Below are positions 6,264 to 20,393 of a stretch of DNA of 64,000 nucleotides, piece by piece. The notes below the pieces were generated by a model. It had not been told where the DNA came from and did no database searches. It saw nothing but the letters and a program-made list of their open reading frames with translations. Where the stretch lies: IMG/VR virus record IMGVR_UViG_3300050343_000265, positions 1-64,000 of that record; one strand, 5' to 3'. A program made the translations under genes and the position numbers. The DNA comes from a virus. Numbering within the stretch: the first letter of the stretch is position 1; the number at the start of each line of letters is the position of its first letter.

Positions 6264-6605
6264 ATGACTGCATACGCTGGCGGCCCACAAATTCAAAACT
6301 ATTTAGATCCCGAAAGGCCAGACTATGGGGCTATACTTTTATCAGGAGCAGAGTCAACAAGTGCATTGGAGCAAGCTTTAATGAAATTAAATTCAGAAGT
6401 ACAAGGTACCGAAACAATATTTGATGCACGAGTAAAGGCAGCAAAGATGGGAGCTGCTGATGCTTCAAACCTTGCGGGCGCAGAGACGTTTGCAGCAGGC
6501 TTGGGAGCAGGAGCTAAAGCAATTAGTGCAGGAATTGGTGCTATTCCAACTGGTGGTGGTGGTGGTAATGAAGGTTTAGGGATACAGGCAACAGATATAC
6601 TATAG
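6264..6605 (+). CDS. Small Ala/Gly-rich virion-region protein
   Basis: 113 residues from an ATG preceded by AAGGATT. Residues ~60-95 are Ala/Gly-rich and end in a Gly run. The frame stops at 6605, but an adjacent frame continues as QIYYRSQHSGAGSALGEA to a stop near 6649, so the natural C terminus may be about 15 residues longer. Function unknown. Confidence 0.55.
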   Translation: MTAYAGGPQIQNYLDPERPDYGAILLSGAESTSALEQALMKLNSEVQGTETIFDARVKAAKMGAADASNLAGAETFAAGLGAGAKAISAGIGAIPTGGGGGNEGLGIQATDIL

Positions 6606-7462: not shown

Positions 7463-7756
7463 AATAGTAAAAGATCAGCAGAAGATGAAAGAGTTTCCTA
7501 TTACAGTTTAGGTAATCGAGAAGAACGTAGAGCTACTGCAGAAGCCCGTAATGACAATTTACTCCTGCGTGCTCAACAGCGTGCCGATGCGAACGAAAGT
7601 CGTTTAGATGAATTGGGTTATCTCAGGTCACGCGATAATAAAGAAGATCTCCGTTATAACGAAAGGATGGAACGTGAAAACAAGAAAGACAGACGTGCAG
7701 CTATTTCTTCAACAGTTGCAGGTCTTGTTGCCCTTGGTGCAGCTTTTGCAGTTTAA
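7463..7756 (+). pseudogene. Open reading frame without a start: helical basic protein remnant
   Basis: In the same frame as the S74 domain, immediately after its stop, the sequence is open for 97 codons (SKRSAEDERVSYYSLGNREE, ending in TVAGLVALGAAFAV). It is strongly helical with many Arg, Glu and Asp, then a hydrophobic C-terminal tail. No ATG, GTG or TTG is placed to start it; the in-context ATG at about 7488 is out of frame. Probably a small gene damaged by an indel. Confidence 0.4.
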
Positions 7757-7759
7757 GAA

Positions 7760-7975
7760 TTACTGGCCATAATTGTAACCAGCAATGAAGGCATTGTTCT
7801 TGGCGATGCCCCCTGCAACATCTGCGGGAATCTCCCATTTACGTAAGAAATATTCAGATGCGGCTTGTGGTGTTTGGAAAGTAGTATTTAAAAAATCATT
7901 AGTAACCTTGTTGTATTCAGGCAATTGATTTTGTGACAACGCATGATCTAATTGACCTTTCCAATTGGTATTAAG
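7760..7975 (-). pseudogene. Open frame that may complete the gene at 7971-8273
   Basis: On the minus strand a frame is open from just inside the end of the 7971-8273 gene down to a TAA at 7760 (NTNWKGQLDHALSQNQLPEY, then QTPQAASEYFLRKWEIPADV). It has no start codon and begins where the upstream gene stops, so one indel near 7972 would fuse the two into a protein of about 170 residues. Confidence 0.4.
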
Positions 7976-8273
7976 CTACAGCAAGTGCTCCAGCCTTACG
8001 TTTAGCTGATTTAAGCTTCGATGCAGAATCAATTTGCATCTTCTTGGCTTTTACATCTGCGTCAGCAGTAAGACGTGTTGCAGCTACCTCAGCCTGGTTT
8101 TTAATAGTAGCTAGCTTTTCTTTCTTCTTCAACTCTGCATTCGTCAGAGCAATTTCACCCATGTTCGGTGAGTTTCTACGTGCTGCTAAGAATGCACGAA
8201 GAGTATCGTCAGCAACTGCCTTACCTGCCTGTGAGTAATTACCTTGTGCACCGATACCTTGAAACTTGATCAT
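7971..8273 (-). CDS. Small helical Ala/Lys-rich protein
   Basis: 100 residues: a short N-terminal part (MIKFQGIGAQGNYSQAG), then a long charged helix rich in Ala, Lys and Asp. No family recognised. Reality is supported by its own promoter hexamer, 24 nt before the ATG, arranged back to back with the promoter of the rightward gene at 8341. It probably continues in another frame to 7760. Confidence 0.6.
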   Translation of the reverse strand: MIKFQGIGAQGNYSQAGKAVADDTLRAFLAARRNSPNMGEIALTNAELKKKEKLATIKNQAEVAATRLTADADVKAKKMQIDSASKLKSAKRKAGALAVA

Positions 8274-8297
8274 ATTGATTAATCATGCGATATGGCT

Positions 8298-8303
8298 ATT
8301 CTA
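8298..8303 (-). promoter_or_regulatory. Late-type promoter hexamer (TAGAAT, leftward)
   Basis: GTTAGAATA on the minus strand, 24 nt before the ATG at 8273. It is back to back with the rightward hexamer at 8311-8316, seven bases between the two. Confidence 0.6.
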
Positions 8304-8310
8304 ACTTTTG

Positions 8311-8316
8311 TAGAAT
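8311..8316 (+). promoter_or_regulatory. Late-type promoter hexamer (TAGAAT, rightward)
   Basis: TGTAGAATA, 24 nt before the ATG at 8341; mirrors the leftward element at 8298-8303. Confidence 0.6.
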
Positions 8317-8340
8317 ATAGAAAATGTGTGTTAAATAAGA

Positions 8341-8607
8341 ATGGCTTCAGTAGATCCAAAATACATGAAAAAAACTGTTACTGGCACAACCAGAGGGGAA
8401 TTGCAAGGGTCATCTCCACAGGGCGGACGTAAAATTAATCCTCCTGTAGCTCCAACAATTGCTGGTGCTAGCTATGGAACTGGCAGTCAAAAATCAACTA
8501 CTAATAACCCCCTACCACCAACAGCGTCTACTCCTACCCCTACGCAGGAACTAAAACCCTCCCCGGTCAACCAACCCTCCCCCCGGAACACAAAAAGGAT
8601 CTTTTGA
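8341..8607 (+). CDS. N-terminal part of an 11-residue-repeat protein
   Basis: 88 codons, Pro/Thr/Ser-rich at the end. The frame runs into a C6 run at 8579-8584. With one base changed there, the sequence reads PGTQKGSFDFKKIMDSFYN straight into the gene at 8621, so both are probably one protein of about 400 residues. The C-run makes either a sequencing indel or slipped-strand variation plausible. Promoter hexamer 24 nt upstream of the ATG. Confidence 0.6.
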   Translation: MASVDPKYMKKTVTGTTRGELQGSSPQGGRKINPPVAPTIAGASYGTGSQKSTTNNPLPPTASTPTPTQELKPSPVNQPSPRNTKRIF

Positions 8608-8620
8608 TTTTAAAAAAATC

Positions 8621-9547
8621 ATGGATTCGTTTTATAATTACAAACCTAAGGAAGATGGTGATGCCACTGATTTGCAGAAGCAGGCATATCAAGGAAATAT
8701 GGTTCAATCGATTCTTGATAGCCAATTAGCACAGCAGCTGGGTCAATACAATGCAGGCTTAGCTCAAGATAATATGACGCATCAAGCTGATCTTGAGCAA
8801 CGTAATCAGACTGGCCTAATGGCTGAGGAGTTTAATTATGGAATGGCTGGAATGGATGCGCAGTTCAAGTACGGAGAACAAGGAGCACAGAATCAACATG
8901 AACGTGATATCGGAATGCTATCGGCAACTGGTGAAGAGCAGCGGCTTAATCTTTCAGCACAAGGTGATCAAGATCGTCTGGGTCAAATCGTAAAGGGTGA
9001 ACAAGATCGTATGACCAACGATCTAAATAACCAATCCTCCGAAGCAATTGCTTCTGGACGATATTCCGCTGATACAACAATTGCATCAACACAAGCCGAT
9101 GCTAGTAAGTACGGATCTAAAGAAGCTGCCGACGCGAGTAAGTATGGTTCTCAGGCTAGTAAAGATGCAAGCATTTACGGTTCGGATCGATCGGCTCAAT
9201 CGAGTATGTATGGATCTGACAAATCAGCTGAAGCAAGTATCTATGGATCTCAAGCAGCTAAAGATTCAAGTATCTTTGGTTCACAAGCATCAAAGGACGC
9301 AAGTACTTATGGATCTGATAAATCAGCTCAAGCTAGTATGTATGGATCTGACAGATCAGCTCAAGCCAGTATGTATGGAGCAGATAAATCTCTTGAAGGA
9401 TCTAAATATGGTACAGATGGAGTTATCCGTAACACTCGTGCAACAGGAGATGAAACTCGTAAGACCATGGATACTGAGCAACAGCTAAAAGCAAAAGAGC
9501 GGGCAGGGATGCATAAGTATGCACGTGGTACAGCGAGGGCTATGTAG
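8621..9547 (+). CDS. Virion-type protein with nine tandem 11-residue repeats
   Basis: 308 codons. Residues 1-150 are Gln/Asp-rich and helical. From about base 9112 to 9413 come nine tandem 11-residue units of the form YGSDKSAQASM (YGS, a variable pair, SA/AK, charged residue, ASx), encoded by 33-bp DNA repeats. The end is charged (KERAGMHKYARGT). An 11-residue period is typical of hendecad helices; a long stalk or helical filament is inferred. The stop overlaps the next GTG start (TAGTG). The gene is likely fused upstream to 8341. Confidence 0.65.
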   Translation: MDSFYNYKPKEDGDATDLQKQAYQGNMVQSILDSQLAQQLGQYNAGLAQDNMTHQADLEQRNQTGLMAEEFNYGMAGMDAQFKYGEQGAQNQHERDIGMLSATGEEQRLNLSAQGDQDRLGQIVKGEQDRMTNDLNNQSSEAIASGRYSADTTIASTQADASKYGSKEAADASKYGSQASKDASIYGSDRSAQSSMYGSDKSAEASIYGSQAAKDSSIFGSQASKDASTYGSDKSAQASMYGSDRSAQASMYGADKSLEGSKYGTDGVIRNTRATGDETRKTMDTEQQLKAKERAGMHKYARGTARAM

Positions 9548-12558: not shown

Positions 12559-13473
12559 GTGGAAACCGAGGTGGTGGAAACCGAGGTGGTGGAAACAAAG
12601 GTGGTGGAAATAGAGGTGGTGCCAATAATCCGGGGTGGTGGAGGCGGTAGAAGTCAGCCTGCAGCACAGAGTGGAAGAGGTGGCGGCGGTAGAAGTCAGC
12701 CTGCATCCAGTCCTTCACCACAGCCAGCTCAAGCTAAAGCGCAAAGTCAGCTTAGAACTAAAGTCCAAGGACTCCGCGCTAAAGCCAGGGAAGCTACTAA
12801 ATCTGGTAACGATACTCGTGCAAGCCAAATTCGTGCAAAGATTGGCAATAAGAGAATTAAAAATACACGTAATAAACTTGCTACAGCTCAAGCTGCGGGC
12901 AATACAAAGCGTGCTGGACGTGTTGGTAATCGTCTAGAGAATTTAAAAACAAAGAGAAACGATAGACGTCAAAAATCTTTTAACTCACAGCAGAATGTCA
13001 ACAGTGCGGCAGATTTTGATTTTGCAAAACATTCTAAAGGGAGAGTCGGCGTAAGGGAGCTCGGGTATCTCAAACGTGATAAAGGTTTCTCTAGAGATGA
13101 AATTGCTGCAGCCGCCAACAATAGTGGATTAAAAATTGGCAAGCGAGCTCAGAATCGCCTTAATAGGTGGGCTTCCGCTAAAGATAAAGCTAATGGCACT
13201 CCTGTACCTGAAGGTAGTCAAACAATTATAAATGAAGAGCAACCTCCAAAATTTGACCAACCGTTGACTACTATGCCTGTACCTCAACCATCTCCTTCTC
13301 CTTCTCCTTCACCTTCACCTTCACCTTCACCTTCACCTTCTCCTTCTCCTTCTCCTGATAAGCCGATCACAGTTGTTAACCCCCAACCAAATCCATACGT
13401 TACTCCTAACCCGACCATCGTCACTCCTCAACCTACCGTTCAACCTTACTCAGCCAAATCCTTATATAACTGA
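12559..13473 (+). CDS. Middle part of the Gly/Pro-rich protein
   Basis: The first ~25 codons of this frame (ETEVVETEVV...) are an out-of-frame reading of the Gly-Asn repeats; genuine sequence starts at about residue 25 (RGGGGGRSQPAA). It includes a helical basic section, a segment GVRELGYLKRDKGFSRDEIA, and near 13290-13350 a run of nine or more Ser-Pro pairs. Function unknown; surface or linker protein inferred from composition. Confidence 0.55.
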   Translation: METEVVETEVVETKVVEIEVVPIIRGGGGGRSQPAAQSGRGGGGRSQPASSPSPQPAQAKAQSQLRTKVQGLRAKAREATKSGNDTRASQIRAKIGNKRIKNTRNKLATAQAAGNTKRAGRVGNRLENLKTKRNDRRQKSFNSQQNVNSAADFDFAKHSKGRVGVRELGYLKRDKGFSRDEIAAAANNSGLKIGKRAQNRLNRWASAKDKANGTPVPEGSQTIINEEQPPKFDQPLTTMPVPQPSPSPSPSPSPSPSPSPSPSPSPDKPITVVNPQPNPYVTPNPTIVTPQPTVQPYSAKSLYN

Positions 13474-14047
13474 TATTGATGATAGCTTCAATGATTTTGA
13501 TGATAGCTTCAACAATAACAACGACCAAGATGTTGACTACACTCAGACGTTAAATGTTAATCAAGACAATGACATCAACAATAATGTTACTGGTGACGGC
13601 AACTACATAAATAATCAGCAAGATAATTCCATTCGTAACTACGGTGGGGATCAGCGCGTCTTTAATTATCAAAGCAATGGTTATGGTGGCACAGGCAGAG
13701 GTGTAGATAGTCCTGCATCTGCTGCAACAATGGCCGGTTTCTATTCACCTAGTGATAGTCATGCCGCTAACGCTGCTCGTCTTGATCGACGCATAACTCA
13801 AGGAAACGATTATGCGAAGAACAATATGAATACAAGTAATATTGCACAGGGTGCAATGATGATGGCAAAACAAAATAGAAGCATTGATCCAGCTCTCATG
13901 GATCAGCGTGTTCAAGGACGAGGTGCTGCAAGTAAAGCTCAGGCTTACATGATGGGTAACTCTATTTATGGTGACCTTGCTGGCTTTAGGCCCCAGTGGA
14001 ATCAACCACAGTCCCCTAAGCCACCTCAAATGCCCAATTTCGGTTAG
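13373..14047 (+). CDS. C-terminal part of the Gly/Pro-rich protein
   Basis: Genuine sequence begins around residue 28 (QPNPYITDIDDSFNDFDD). It holds an Asn/Asp/Gln-rich section (NVNQDNDINNN, GNYINNQQDNSIRNYGG) like that of the protein at 11927, then a helical Ala/Met/Gln-rich domain and a Pro-rich tail. Repeated short Asn-rich units suggest a beta-solenoid-like fold, but this is a guess. Confidence 0.5.
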   Translation: MLTPNQIHTLLLTRPSSLLNLPFNLTQPNPYITDIDDSFNDFDDSFNNNNDQDVDYTQTLNVNQDNDINNNVTGDGNYINNQQDNSIRNYGGDQRVFNYQSNGYGGTGRGVDSPASAATMAGFYSPSDSHAANAARLDRRITQGNDYAKNNMNTSNIAQGAMMMAKQNRSIDPALMDQRVQGRGAASKAQAYMMGNSIYGDLAGFRPQWNQPQSPKPPQMPNFG

Positions 14048-14096: not shown

Positions 14097-16379
14097 ATGA
14101 ATCAATCAGGAGATAACGGATTCAATCAAATCCTCACTGCTGCCAAGGAGCGGCGTGGGGACTTGTCCGTTGACACAATGATTGTTAGTTCTCATCTATC
14201 ACAGATGAGAATGTTCATGCTACGTCGGGGTGTTGAGTTCTATGCTGAACAAGATAGCTACGGCTATCGAAAAGAGTTTCTTTCAAAAGTCTGCGAGCAA
14301 AATATGCTCGACATGAAACTAGATAGTATTGTTGATTATTTCTTATGTGACGGACAGGGTTTATTCTACTTCCGTCCATCTGGTGATGATTATCAACTTC
14401 TTTACTTTCCAAAAGAAAACTATAGAGCCTATAGAGATCAGGAAGGTAATTTAAGTAGTGTTATATTACGCTATACCTTTAACGTACAAGAAAACAAAGG
14501 CTTTGACAACTATCCCACCAACACTCAACGTGGTGGAAAGAAAAAATATATCAAACTTCAAGTCTATAAAGATCGAATCGAGCAAACAATTTCTGATGAA
14601 AAAATTGAATTCGAGAATTCACTAGGGGGACCACAAGTTTCATTACCGGGTCAAGTTGAAACACTCACTAATAGTCTTGGTTTTATTCCAGCAGTAGAAA
14701 TCTATAACTACATGGACTGTACCGGTGAAGCTGCTGGTAATGGTGAGTTTGAATGGTTGTCCAACCAAATCATGTATCACAATGAATTGGTTCAGAATGT
14801 TCGTAAGAACTTGAAGTTCTTCGGCAATCCTACGTTGATTTCTAGTCGTCCTAAGCAGGATATTATTGAAAGTGGTGATGAAAATACTTTCCGTCCAACA
14901 ATAAGTTCACAAGCTGGCTTCAGTGCTATTGGACGTTCTAGTACACGTGTAAGTGAACCGTTTGGCGGTGCTTCCATGCTGGACGGACAAATCAGAGTCC
15001 CGAGAGTTATTGCAAACCTAGAACCAACGGATCGTATTAGCTATCTAACGCCTGACAGCGTTAGTGGTGATCAAAACATGTATGTCAAGCAATACCGTCA
15101 AGAGATTCGTCTAGCACTTGGTGGTGTGGATGATCTTGACTTCCAAGCTGCTGGTACTGCATATGAAATTAAAACTCTGTATGGACGTGTAGCAGCGACT
15201 GCTGAAAAGAAAGCACGTGCCATGTTTACGTATGGTCTTTGCCGCTTATTTTCATTAATGATCTCTCATGAAGAACGTATGTTTAATGAGAGCTTTAGCG
15301 TAGCAATTGGATTGGAAAAGCCTGTAATTCCACTCATAGAAGATTATCCAAACCCCGAAGATTATCAAAAGCAGAATGAAAAGTATAGAAAGAACTTTGC
15401 TAAGTATGAACGCTTAAAGAATGAAGCACTGAACGCTATACTTGAGGGAGGCGAAATGCCCCCTGGTGTAACTGGACTTATTCCAGATGGAAGCACACAA
15501 GTTGACTGGCGTTGGATGGGTGAAGTTTTTGAAGATAGCTCTGATGAGATCCTTCAAAACTCTATCGTTGTCCGAAACCTGCAAGAAGCAGGCGTTGGTT
15601 CAATTGAAGCACTGAAGTACCTCTTCCCAAGTAAAACTGACGAAGAACGTTCAGCAATGTTAAGTGGATTTCCATTCAGAGTAGTCCAACAAACACAACA
15701 AAGTATTTCTCAATTCATTGGATTACTTGGCAATTTATATCAGTTGCCACATCCACAAACACCGGATAAGCCTTTGGCATCCGACCCGAACCTAGATATC
15801 ACTGGGTTCTTATACAGATCACTAGATTATTTACGTAAGGAGTTAAGTTACAGTGGAAAGTACAAACCAAGTAGCAACGACACAAGCATCAGTAAGCTCT
15901 CCGATGCAGACATCCGCCGCTCCGGTCTCGGCAGGACAGTACGCGACGAGCGCACCCCAGACATTCCAGGGCTCACCGATGGGCCAGGCACCTCAGGCTC
16001 CGGTCTACCAGGCGCAGGCCCCGGTAGCGCAGGCTTCGGCACCAGCGCAGGCCAGCAATCCGTGGCAGGAGGCGTTCCAGGCGCTGAGCGCAAGTTTGAA
16101 TACAAGCAGCCCCTCCCAGGCCCAGGTTCCATCCTCGGCGTATCAGACGCCAACACCTCAGGCACTTATCCAGGCTCCGCTGGCTTCGGTTCCCCAAACC
16201 CAGCAACAAGCCCAGTATTCGGATCACCGGACTTACAGTCCCCAAGCTTCAACCCAGGCTTATCAGCAGCAGGCTTACCAGCAGCAGCTGGCCGCTCAGG
16301 AGGCGTACCAGGCGCAGCAAATGCAGGCTCCGCAGGTAAACGACGGGTACCTAAGTCAAATCAGCGACGAAAGTCTTGA
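14097..16379 (+). CDS. Portal protein (head-tail connector)
   Basis: 760 residues. The conserved-looking core (to ~590) is rich in helices and has the composition and gene order (terL, portal, scaffold, capsid) of podovirus-type portals; the dodecameric ring would form the DNA channel. Features include residues ~330-380 with LEPTDRISYLTPD and VKQYRQEIRLALGGVDD, typical of the clip and stem helices. The last ~175 codons are a low-complexity Gly/Ser/Pro/Ala tail ending in basic KRRVPKSNQRRKS, and they overlap the scaffold gene in another frame by 527 nt. Assignment rests on size, context and fold impression rather than a diagnostic motif. Confidence 0.75.
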   Translation: MNQSGDNGFNQILTAAKERRGDLSVDTMIVSSHLSQMRMFMLRRGVEFYAEQDSYGYRKEFLSKVCEQNMLDMKLDSIVDYFLCDGQGLFYFRPSGDDYQLLYFPKENYRAYRDQEGNLSSVILRYTFNVQENKGFDNYPTNTQRGGKKKYIKLQVYKDRIEQTISDEKIEFENSLGGPQVSLPGQVETLTNSLGFIPAVEIYNYMDCTGEAAGNGEFEWLSNQIMYHNELVQNVRKNLKFFGNPTLISSRPKQDIIESGDENTFRPTISSQAGFSAIGRSSTRVSEPFGGASMLDGQIRVPRVIANLEPTDRISYLTPDSVSGDQNMYVKQYRQEIRLALGGVDDLDFQAAGTAYEIKTLYGRVAATAEKKARAMFTYGLCRLFSLMISHEERMFNESFSVAIGLEKPVIPLIEDYPNPEDYQKQNEKYRKNFAKYERLKNEALNAILEGGEMPPGVTGLIPDGSTQVDWRWMGEVFEDSSDEILQNSIVVRNLQEAGVGSIEALKYLFPSKTDEERSAMLSGFPFRVVQQTQQSISQFIGLLGNLYQLPHPQTPDKPLASDPNLDITGFLYRSLDYLRKELSYSGKYKPSSNDTSISKLSDADIRRSGLGRTVRDERTPDIPGLTDGPGTSGSGLPGAGPGSAGFGTSAGQQSVAGGVPGAERKFEYKQPLPGPGSILGVSDANTSGTYPGSAGFGSPNPATSPVFGSPDLQSPSFNPGLSAAGLPAAAGRSGGVPGAANAGSAGKRRVPKSNQRRKS

Positions 16380-16875
16380 AGTCCTTGAGCACTTTGGTGC
16401 TGAAGCCCCTTCCCTTCTGAACACCTATGCCTGTGCCGTTGAGGATGCCCTCATCGAGCAAGTACAGCGTGGTCAGTCCCAGTCACTCATGCTTGAGGCA
16501 GCTGGTGAAGAGCGTGCAGCTATGAACCTCATGCTCACCGACCCAGACGTTCTTGCTGATTACGTCAACGATTTCTACGGCCCTGAAGGTCCATATCCAA
16601 CTGAGACTCCTCAAGAGGCATATGACCGTGAGCAGTACGAAGCTTACGAACAGTTTGAAGCTGAAATCGAAGCACAAGAAATGGGTCAAGTCCCTGCTTC
16701 CTTCCAGCGTCCACAAATGGACATGCCAGTTCCCGGTCGCCAGCAGAACCCTGCTAATGACTTCTGGGGTGGCTTTAGCCAGATGATGGATCAGAACCCT
16801 GAGAACGCTTGGCAGTACCTTTCCCAGGCACAGCCCGGCATGCTCTCTACGAAGATGCTTGTTCAGGACACCTGA
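15853..16875 (+). CDS. Capsid scaffolding protein (putative)
   Basis: 340 residues from a GTG preceded by AAGGAG at 15837-15842 (10-nt spacer). The N-terminal ~150 residues are Gln/Ala/Pro-rich and disordered; the C-terminal part is acidic and helical with many Glu and Met. This composition and its position between portal and capsid genes match scaffolds, which guide prohead assembly and leave before DNA entry. Codon choice resembles that of the capsid gene, suggesting strong expression. The first 527 nt also encode the portal tail in another frame, which is exceptional. Confidence 0.65.
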   Translation: MESTNQVATTQASVSSPMQTSAAPVSAGQYATSAPQTFQGSPMGQAPQAPVYQAQAPVAQASAPAQASNPWQEAFQALSASLNTSSPSQAQVPSSAYQTPTPQALIQAPLASVPQTQQQAQYSDHRTYSPQASTQAYQQQAYQQQLAAQEAYQAQQMQAPQVNDGYLSQISDESLEVLEHFGAEAPSLLNTYACAVEDALIEQVQRGQSQSLMLEAAGEERAAMNLMLTDPDVLADYVNDFYGPEGPYPTETPQEAYDREQYEAYEQFEAEIEAQEMGQVPASFQRPQMDMPVPGRQQNPANDFWGGFSQMMDQNPENAWQYLSQAQPGMLSTKMLVQDT

Positions 16876-17805: not shown

Positions 17806-18744
17806 ATGTCAGCAAAAATTTCAGGTGATTCCGTACGTTCTTACCTTCGAGATATCGGACGCATTCCACTACTAGAGCATGACGAAGAAATCATACTTGG
17901 TCGTCAAGTTCAACGAATGATGGAAATCAAAGCATGTGAAGATCTACTAAATAAGCCAAGTCAAGAGGACCTAGCTGTATCACTTGGTATTACTACAAAA
18001 GAACTAAAACGTGATATGCGTGATGGTAAAAGAGCCAAAGACAAAATGGTTACGGCAAATCTGCGATTAGTTGTGTCAGTTGCCAAGAAATATACAAAAC
18101 GGAATATGGAATTGCTTGATATTATTCAAGAAGGAACAATTGGATTGGTAAGAGGTGTTGAAAAGTTTGATCCTGGCCGTGGTTACAAGTTCAGTACTTA
18201 TGCATATTGGTGGATTAGACAAGGTATTACTAGGGCAATTGCGGAGAAGTCACGCGCAATACGCTTGCCGATCCACGTCACTGAGAATCTCAACAAGCTT
18301 AAGAAAGCACAGCGGGAGCTAAGTCAGTTAAATGGGGAACTACCAAATGTATTTCAGCTAGCTGACTATCTAGGCTTATCAGTTGAAGAGATCAAAGACC
18401 TGATGTGTAAGGCTAGACAACCTACTTCGCTCGAAATCAAGATTGGTGAAAATCGAGATACTGCATTGATTGATCTACTAGAAGACGAAAGTCAACTGCC
18501 TGACATGTTAATTGAACGTCAGTTCATTAAAGAAGATATTAGAGATTTAATTAAAGACCTGCCTGAGATGCAAGCTGCTGTAATCTCTATGCGCTACGGC
18601 ATAGGTGAAGATATCTTGGAACCAATGTCTATGACAGCTATTGGTCAAGTTTTAAATATGAGCCGTGATCGCGTGCGTACTCTTGAGCAAAAAGCAGTAA
18701 GAGGACTCAGAGAACATAACCAGCAAATTAGTAATTATCTCTAA
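17806..18744 (+). CDS. Sigma-70 family factor of the group 2 type
   Basis: 312 residues. Region 1.2 at ~8-38 (DSVRSYLRDIGRIPLLEHDE), region 2 at ~78-150 with 2.1 NLRLVVSVAKKY, the core-binding LLDIIQEGTIGL, -10 recognition YAYWWIRQGITRAI, then region 3 (RLPIHVTENLNKL) and region 4 at ~250-308 with the helix-turn-helix MTAIGQVLNMSRDRVRTLEQ. Length and motifs match cyanobacterial group 2 sigma factors, without the long region 1.1 of principal sigmas. It would direct host RNA polymerase. Its place inside the head gene cluster suggests control of virion genes, perhaps at the TTARAATA sites. Host origin by transfer is likely, though not shown. Confidence 0.93.
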   Translation: MSAKISGDSVRSYLRDIGRIPLLEHDEEIILGRQVQRMMEIKACEDLLNKPSQEDLAVSLGITTKELKRDMRDGKRAKDKMVTANLRLVVSVAKKYTKRNMELLDIIQEGTIGLVRGVEKFDPGRGYKFSTYAYWWIRQGITRAIAEKSRAIRLPIHVTENLNKLKKAQRELSQLNGELPNVFQLADYLGLSVEEIKDLMCKARQPTSLEIKIGENRDTALIDLLEDESQLPDMLIERQFIKEDIRDLIKDLPEMQAAVISMRYGIGEDILEPMSMTAIGQVLNMSRDRVRTLEQKAVRGLREHNQQISNYL

Positions 18745-19925: not shown

Positions 19926-20312
19926 TTAAATACCTTCTTCTATTTTAGTCATCTTTTCATCAGCACGTTTTGACCATTGAAGATTATCTGCACGGCAATC
20001 TTTTTTGTTGCTGTTGATATGTTTAACAACGCTACAACCTTTAAGTCGCCCATATGGAGTTGGGGGTAATCCAAGAAAAGCAAATGCAACAAGAGTATGC
20101 ACAGGAATAGTTATTAACTTACGGCGTCCAATGCGTTGAGTTAAGTTTACGACTGGGTAACCACCCTTACTTATTTTCTGCTTAAGAATCCTTTCGATCC
20201 TTCCCTTAGTACTTTTAATAAGACCTTTTTGGTTTACATAGTACTCAATGCAGCACTCAAAACCCGGCAATGTATGCACAGGGATCCATTCATTATTGTC
20301 TATAAAGTCCAT
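19926..20312 (-). CDS. HNH homing-type endonuclease with NUMOD4-like start
   Basis: 128 residues from the ATG at 20312 (MDFIDNNEWIPVHTLPGFE), preferred to the longer version from 20366 because the family normally begins near this W-x-x-V-x-G motif. The NUMOD4-like part is followed by the HNH core: IPVHTLVAFAFLG, then VVKHINSNKKDCRADNLQWS, where family members usually have DHINGN. The Asp before the second His is Lys here, so activity is uncertain. A free-standing homing endonuclease inserted between virion genes is a common pattern. Confidence 0.75.
   Translation of the reverse strand: MDFIDNNEWIPVHTLPGFECCIEYYVNQKGLIKSTKGRIERILKQKISKGGYPVVNLTQRIGRRKLITIPVHTLVAFAFLGLPPTPYGRLKGCSVVKHINSNKKDCRADNLQWSKRADEKMTKIEEGI
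19942..19947 (-). promoter_or_regulatory. Late-type promoter hexamer (TAAAAT, leftward)
   Basis: ACTAAAATA on the minus strand, 25 nt before the ATG at 19916, inside the 3' end of the HNH gene. Confidence 0.5.
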
Positions 20313-20393
20313 ATAACCAAGTATTCTGGGGTATCTAAATAATATTATAGCGGTAACTATTAACATCAGTATATGTGACTAGTCGAAGTCACT

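Follow-up and report, generated by a model that had tools for sequence, protein, structure and literature searches.

Probable overprinting of a portal gene and a putative scaffold gene in a widespread virus group related to a cyanobacterial phage

A stretch of 527 nt in a tailed phage very probably encodes parts of two head-assembly proteins. Over positions 15853 to 16379, the portal gene would run on from its core into a tail, and a second protein, a putative scaffold, would be initiated internally and read in the next frame, as expected for overprinting. The window analyzed comprises 64,000 nt of a virus record that is 83,953 bases long. The features in the following list are all on the plus strand.

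14097-16379 (+): portal ORF, ATG start, 760 aa
14097-15851 (+): portal gene core, residues 1-585 (phrog_20475, E 9e-176; phrog_64 portal, E 0.0097; fold match)
15852-16379 (+): portal tail of 175 predicted-disordered residues plus the stop, overlapping the next gene (pLDDT, relatives, selection)
15853-16875 (+): second gene, putative scaffold, 340 aa, GTG start, frame +1 relative to the portal (ORF, conservation)
15837-15842 (+): AAGGAG, candidate ribosome-binding site of the second gene, within the portal gene (conserved in clades A and B)
15844-15846 (+): TAA closing the second frame two codons ahead of the GTG (stop within two codons in 188/193 relatives)
16060-16101 (+): conserved PWQ helix of the second gene, residues 70-83, a scaffold-ruled block (motif, predicted helix, constraint bins)
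16098-16136 (+): portal-tail motif E-x5-PxPG-xxL, residues 668-680 (portal-frame constraint)
16221-16235 (+): portal-tail motif GxxDL, residues 709-713 (portal-ruled stretch)

The layout agreed with the original prediction. Positions 15853-16379 are common to both ORFs, the second lies in frame +1, and AAGGAG is found 10 nt before the GTG. The same prediction had described a locally GC-rich stretch with low-complexity readings. GC content was indeed 0.58 to 0.60 over 15750-16499 versus about 0.40 in the portal core, and over 148 relatives the tail was rich in Gly, Ser, Pro and Arg, whereas the second ORF, within the overlap, was rich in Ala, Gln, Ser and Pro.

Identification of the first ORF as a portal is supported by its predicted fold. 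A model of medium confidence matched solved portals in Foldseek, the best being that of NF5 (E = 1.4e-8) and others including T7 and cyanophage P-SCSP1u; many portals scored below 1e-3, with modest TM-scores (up to 0.29 by query length). Most of residues 583-760 had a pLDDT below 50; a short helix at 603-610 was the exception in an otherwise low-confidence tail. The second protein is acidic, and its model was weak (mean pLDDT 58.5, pTM 0.21); the first half was predicted to be disordered except for the helix at residues 70-83, and the second half helical. Searches of this protein against PHROGs, Pfam and PDB sequences returned no homologue, and Foldseek yielded no hit at E <= 0.001. Its gene follows the portal gene and precedes that of the major head protein (phrog_1357), from which other genes separate it. 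Position and composition thus fit the scaffold identity given in the original prediction and make it likely. As neither sequence nor structure searches linked it to a known scaffold, we call the protein a putative scaffold.

Three neighboring features were observed along the way. A sigma-70 family factor, complete from region 1.2 to region 4 (17806-18744, plus strand), is encoded between the genes of the putative scaffold and the major head protein, which is an odd location for a regulator. Just upstream of the major head gene, on the minus strand (19926-20366), is an HNH endonuclease with a NUMOD4 motif, probably a homing endonuclease. Two genes upstream of the portal, a second, shorter out-of-frame overlap of 101 nt joins ORFs 12559-13473 and 13373-14047 (plus strand). 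This one depends on a TTG start that is possibly wrong, and ORF 12559-13473 contains a long Pro-Ser repeat.

We compared the overlap among relatives drawn from viral contigs and genome contigs, taking the best 80 matches per scan; the lineage is therefore larger than sampled. At least 319 loci were collected, the window and Synechococcus phage S-EIV1 included, of which 305 could be mapped as far as the portal core's end and 274 extend 600 nt past it. The latter reduce to 193 distinct sequences among the matches listed, many of them so closely related that they do not count as independent events. They nevertheless span at least five clades, with portal identity down to about 45%. Both the overlap, 443 to 641 nt long, and the second ORF were present in all 193 distinct relatives long enough to judge (among the matches listed). 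In every one the portal frame continues for 146 or more codons past the core, reaching a stop after 146 to 212 codons in 192 and running off the contig end in the remaining one. Even the outlying clade E, with five loci including L313, keeps the overlap, its start lying 16 to 19 nt past the core. Relatives in which the portal ends near 15850, as would be expected if the tail were an artefact, were sought and not found (0/193 among the matches listed), and an outgroup relative without the overlap was likewise absent from the matches listed. The overlap is thus lineage-wide, in a widespread virus group related to a cyanobacterial phage.

Two observations on individual contigs belong here. Lineage contigs L083 to L092 lie in metagenome-assembled genomes labelled Euryarchaeota, Rhodobacteraceae, Crocinitomicaceae and others, and these placements are most likely binning errors. 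In L056, a near-identical contig, a frame break cuts the second ORF to 223 aa, ending at 6348 of that contig; this is probably a sequencing or assembly error.

An open frame of this length could arise passively. In that case only the second gene would matter, and the portal tail would be tolerated junk in a stop-poor stretch coding for Ala, Gln and Pro. Synonymous shuffling of the second ORF of the window left the portal frame open in 0.15% of 2,000 shuffles. In 55 relatives, however, the same procedure left it open in a median of 2.6% and a maximum of 32%, so that openness is not improbable in some of them. Two ORFs on the minus strand (105 and 90 aa) are likewise open across the stretch. With stops scarce throughout this stretch, an open frame says little by itself. 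A count of stop avoidance within the overlap (0 of 995 dangerous codons) was dropped as circular, the overlap being defined by the first stop. In its place we counted stops over a fixed length, the 140 codons that follow the portal core, and found 0 in the portal frame versus 720 in the third frame across the 193 distinct sequences. We chose this length knowing the minimum tail of 146 codons, and the sequences share ancestry; the count is therefore descriptive and carries no P value. Conservation and selection, not openness, carry the case for dual coding.

Selection was measured in both frames with an earlier, smaller locus set than that of the 193-sequence counts. From 148 usable sequences out of 159, with L056 left out, we formed 61 disjoint pairs of 75 to 98.5% DNA identity. 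The third codon position of the scaffold coincides with the first of the portal, and the third of the portal with the second of the scaffold. Beyond the overlap, scaffold positions 1, 2 and 3 changed at rates of 0.059, 0.040 and 0.245; in the overlap the rates were 0.042, 0.070 and 0.115. The silent sites of the scaffold thus slow to half, and its second position, which is mostly silent in the portal, speeds up. Among changes that alter the scaffold, dN/dS in the portal frame was 0.62 (bootstrap, 0.55 to 0.70) compared with 1.39 (1.25 to 1.56) in a non-overlapping control. Among changes that do not alter it, the values were 0.40 (0.33 to 0.49) and 1.03 (0.83 to 1.28). The corresponding scaffold-frame ratios in the overlap were 0.34 (0.30 to 0.38) and 0.22. 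Both overlapped segments are of low complexity and the alignment is least sure there, but the 37 closest pairs gave the same picture, with portal-frame ratios of 0.50 and 0.38 against control values of 1.33 and 0.75. The result also held in 21 pairs taken earlier from the first 80 loci. Clades C and E had too few sequences to be tested separately for selection.

We then simulated evolution in which selection, following a BLOSUM62-based rule, acted on the scaffold alone and the portal frame had only to remain open. Over 12 runs the ratio of change at position 2 to position 1 was 0.73 (0.66 to 0.82), compared with 1.45 to 1.86 observed, and the portal ratio was 1.40 (1.29 to 1.50), compared with 0.55 to 0.70 observed. 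An open but meaningless tail was thus rejected under this scaffold-only simulation. The comparison of synonymous change suggested along with the original prediction therefore revealed constraint in each frame, and these sequence comparisons indicate that purifying selection acts on both frames of the overlap.

Constraint was not uniform along the overlap. Segments defined by motifs are biased, as the motif is required in both members of a pair, and we preferred ten-codon bins unconditioned on portal motifs (14 pairs in clade A and 46 in clade B). In both clades, constraint alternated along the overlap. The scaffold frame ruled over the PWQ helix. At PW+40 to +69 in clade B and PW+40 to +59 in clade A, scaffold position 2 changed faster than position 3, so that the portal frame rules over these codons. 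In clade A the portal also ruled the first 40 codons, where scaffold-frame constraint was weak. Near the portal stop we found no portal-frame constraint in the binned pairs, and the scaffold ruled there; a few further bins elsewhere also lacked portal-frame constraint.

Conserved motifs were found in both readings. PW[QE] of the second protein was present in 148/148 sequences. In the tail, P.PG was present in 146 of the 148 and GxxD[LF] in 132, with G709 and D712 nearly invariant; E668, P674, P676 and G677 were invariant in 39 sequences. E-x5-PxPG and GxxDL are kept between the main clades, where the scaffold reading varies more, and PxPG is absent from clade E.

These results bear directly on passive read-through of the portal. 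The predicted disorder of the tail, its lack of portal-frame constraint near the stop and the general openness of the stretch would all suit such a reading. A portal-frame dN/dS of 0.62 against 1.39 in the control, the failure of the simulation with a merely open frame to reproduce the data and the invariance of tail residues between clades would not. We consider passive read-through improbable and overprinting the better account of the tail. Of the two readings of the overlap, the portal one came nearer to the codon usage of other genes in 46/46 sequences of clade A, 91/96 of clade B and 5/10 of clade C; after correction for composition, the portal frame was favored in 33/46, 90/96 and 0/10, respectively. 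By this measure clades A and B favor the portal frame and clade C does not, so the clades disagree on which frame would be the older.

The second gene has a start of its own. Among the 193 sequences, the start codon is an ATG at -2 in 137, a GTG at +1 in 55 and an ATG at +16 in one (L313), so that 192 start at one of two adjacent places. An in-frame stop lies one or two codons ahead of the start in 188 of the 193. AAGGAG was found in 46/47 sequences of clade A and 102/102 of clade B (148/149 together). Synonymous entropy of the portal codons over this site was 0.30 versus 1.21 upstream in clade A, and 0.39 versus 0.95 in clade B. One portal Tyr codon supplies the ATG of the second gene. It is TAT in 102/102 sequences of clade B, whose portal cores encode half of their Tyr with TAT, and TAC in 47/47 sequences of clade A, which uses the GTG. 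The conserved start, the AAGGAG that usually accompanies it, the low synonymous variation over the site, the choice of Tyr codon and the stop just ahead all favor independent initiation of the second gene. In clade C (L057, L061, L068 and others) the internal ATG is kept; AAGGAG was found in 0/10 and GGAG in 2/10, leaving 8/10 with no recognizable ribosome-binding site.

The second gene could instead begin downstream, at the ATG at 15904 or past the portal stop, and the overlap would then be mostly or wholly portal coding. The S-EIV1 record begins the gene past the portal stop, scaffold-frame constraint is weak over the first 40 codons in clade A, and clade C mostly lacks the ribosome-binding site. 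Nonetheless, the start and AAGGAG are conserved at the upstream place, the PW[QE] helix falls within the overlap in all 148 sequences under strong scaffold-frame constraint, and the scaffold dN/dS across the overlap is 0.34. A downstream start is therefore very unlikely.

The original prediction had left a choice between overprinting and a programmed frameshift producing a portal-scaffold fusion. The overlap is long enough to permit a frameshift, and a rare event would be compatible with the sequence. A shift of +1 or -2 would be needed, yet a scan limited to XXXYYYZ strings and homopolymers uncovered XXXYYYZ strings at 16193 and 16196, both of which would give -1 and lead into the third frame. 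The portal stop contexts differ between clades, and no shift-prone stop context is shared. In addition, the second frame is closed just ahead of its own conserved start in 188/193 sequences, and the tail shows conservation in the portal frame. We regard a frameshift fusion as extremely unlikely; the conserved overlap, selection in both frames and the separate start instead support the overprinting half of the prediction.

In the overprinting model, a ribosome on the portal message would continue past the folded core and add the 175-residue disordered tail. A second ribosome would initiate within the portal gene at the GTG, served by AAGGAG, and translate the second protein in the next frame. 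This protein would consist of a disordered arm rich in Ala, Gln, Ser and Pro with one short conserved helix, followed by a helical acidic half. The PWQ helix and the last codons of the overlap would be ruled by the scaffold, and PxPG and GxxDL by the portal frame or by both. Judged from the sequence, both proteins would be made as read. The internal start may permit production of scaffold in excess of portal, and the tail motifs may be short binding motifs for head assembly.

More speculatively, the portal tail and the scaffold arm, translated next to each other from a single message, might bind each other through short motifs and recruit scaffold to the forming portal ring, thereby starting head assembly. 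We consider this rather unlikely. If true, the overlap would be a functional module beyond compact coding, and the shared DNA would keep both partners inherited together. Median charges were +7 for the last 25 tail residues, -7 for the scaffold arm and -11 for the C part of the scaffold, and these signs agree with the binding-module reading. As the basic end of the tail showed no portal-frame constraint, such a contact would need PxPG and GxxDL. Charge mirroring, by which acidic scaffold codons yield arginine in the portal frame, was rejected as the main cause of the basic tail end, as this route accounts for only 315 of 1,118 arginines in the last 25 residues.

Comparison with known phages places the arrangement in context. 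S-EIV1 (KJ410740; portal identity, 48%) was the sole match among 50,697 phage records and resembles the window, with a homologous portal in a 767-aa ORF and an overlapping second ORF of 325 aa (7727-8704 of locus L082). In its record the second gene is annotated for the last 133 codons alone, as a hypothetical protein; the annotated CDS (8303-8704 of L082; KJ410740.1 59863-60264) is the in-frame remainder past the portal stop. The first 192 of the 325 codons overlap the portal and are unannotated, showing that annotation can miss a large part of a core assembly protein. Gene callers that restrict overlap between genes on the same strand would drop the corresponding part across viromes. A search of literature titles and the beginnings of abstracts, a scope outside which the S-EIV1 genome paper (PMC4542036) fell, returned no report of a portal-scaffold overlap of this kind.

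In T7, P22 and P-SSP7, as in the window, the scaffold gene, putative in the window, comes directly after the portal gene. In their records, however, the two are 99 nt apart in T7 and 13 nt apart in P22, and overlap by 1 nt in P-SSP7. The C/nu3 pair of lambda is also similar in that the scaffold gene is initiated internally, inside the preceding head gene. Unlike the window, nu3 shares both frame and stop with C; here neither is shared, and the portal is the outer gene. The +1 frame and the separate stops (16379 for the portal and 16875 for the second gene) rule out an in-frame nested scaffold of the lambda type. The lineage also offers a large natural data set in which two disordered segments share one sequence, with blocks ruled by either frame.

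Out-of-frame overlapping virion genes occur in small phages such as phiX174, and there, too, one stretch of DNA encodes two proteins in two frames. Overprinting is thus of a known kind, and its place between a portal and a putative scaffold is unusual. In contrast to phiX174, the window belongs to a tailed double-stranded DNA phage with a record of 84 kb, whose coding space is less restricted than that of small phages. For a tailed phage of this size, an overlap of 443 to 641 nt between head-assembly genes is unusual.
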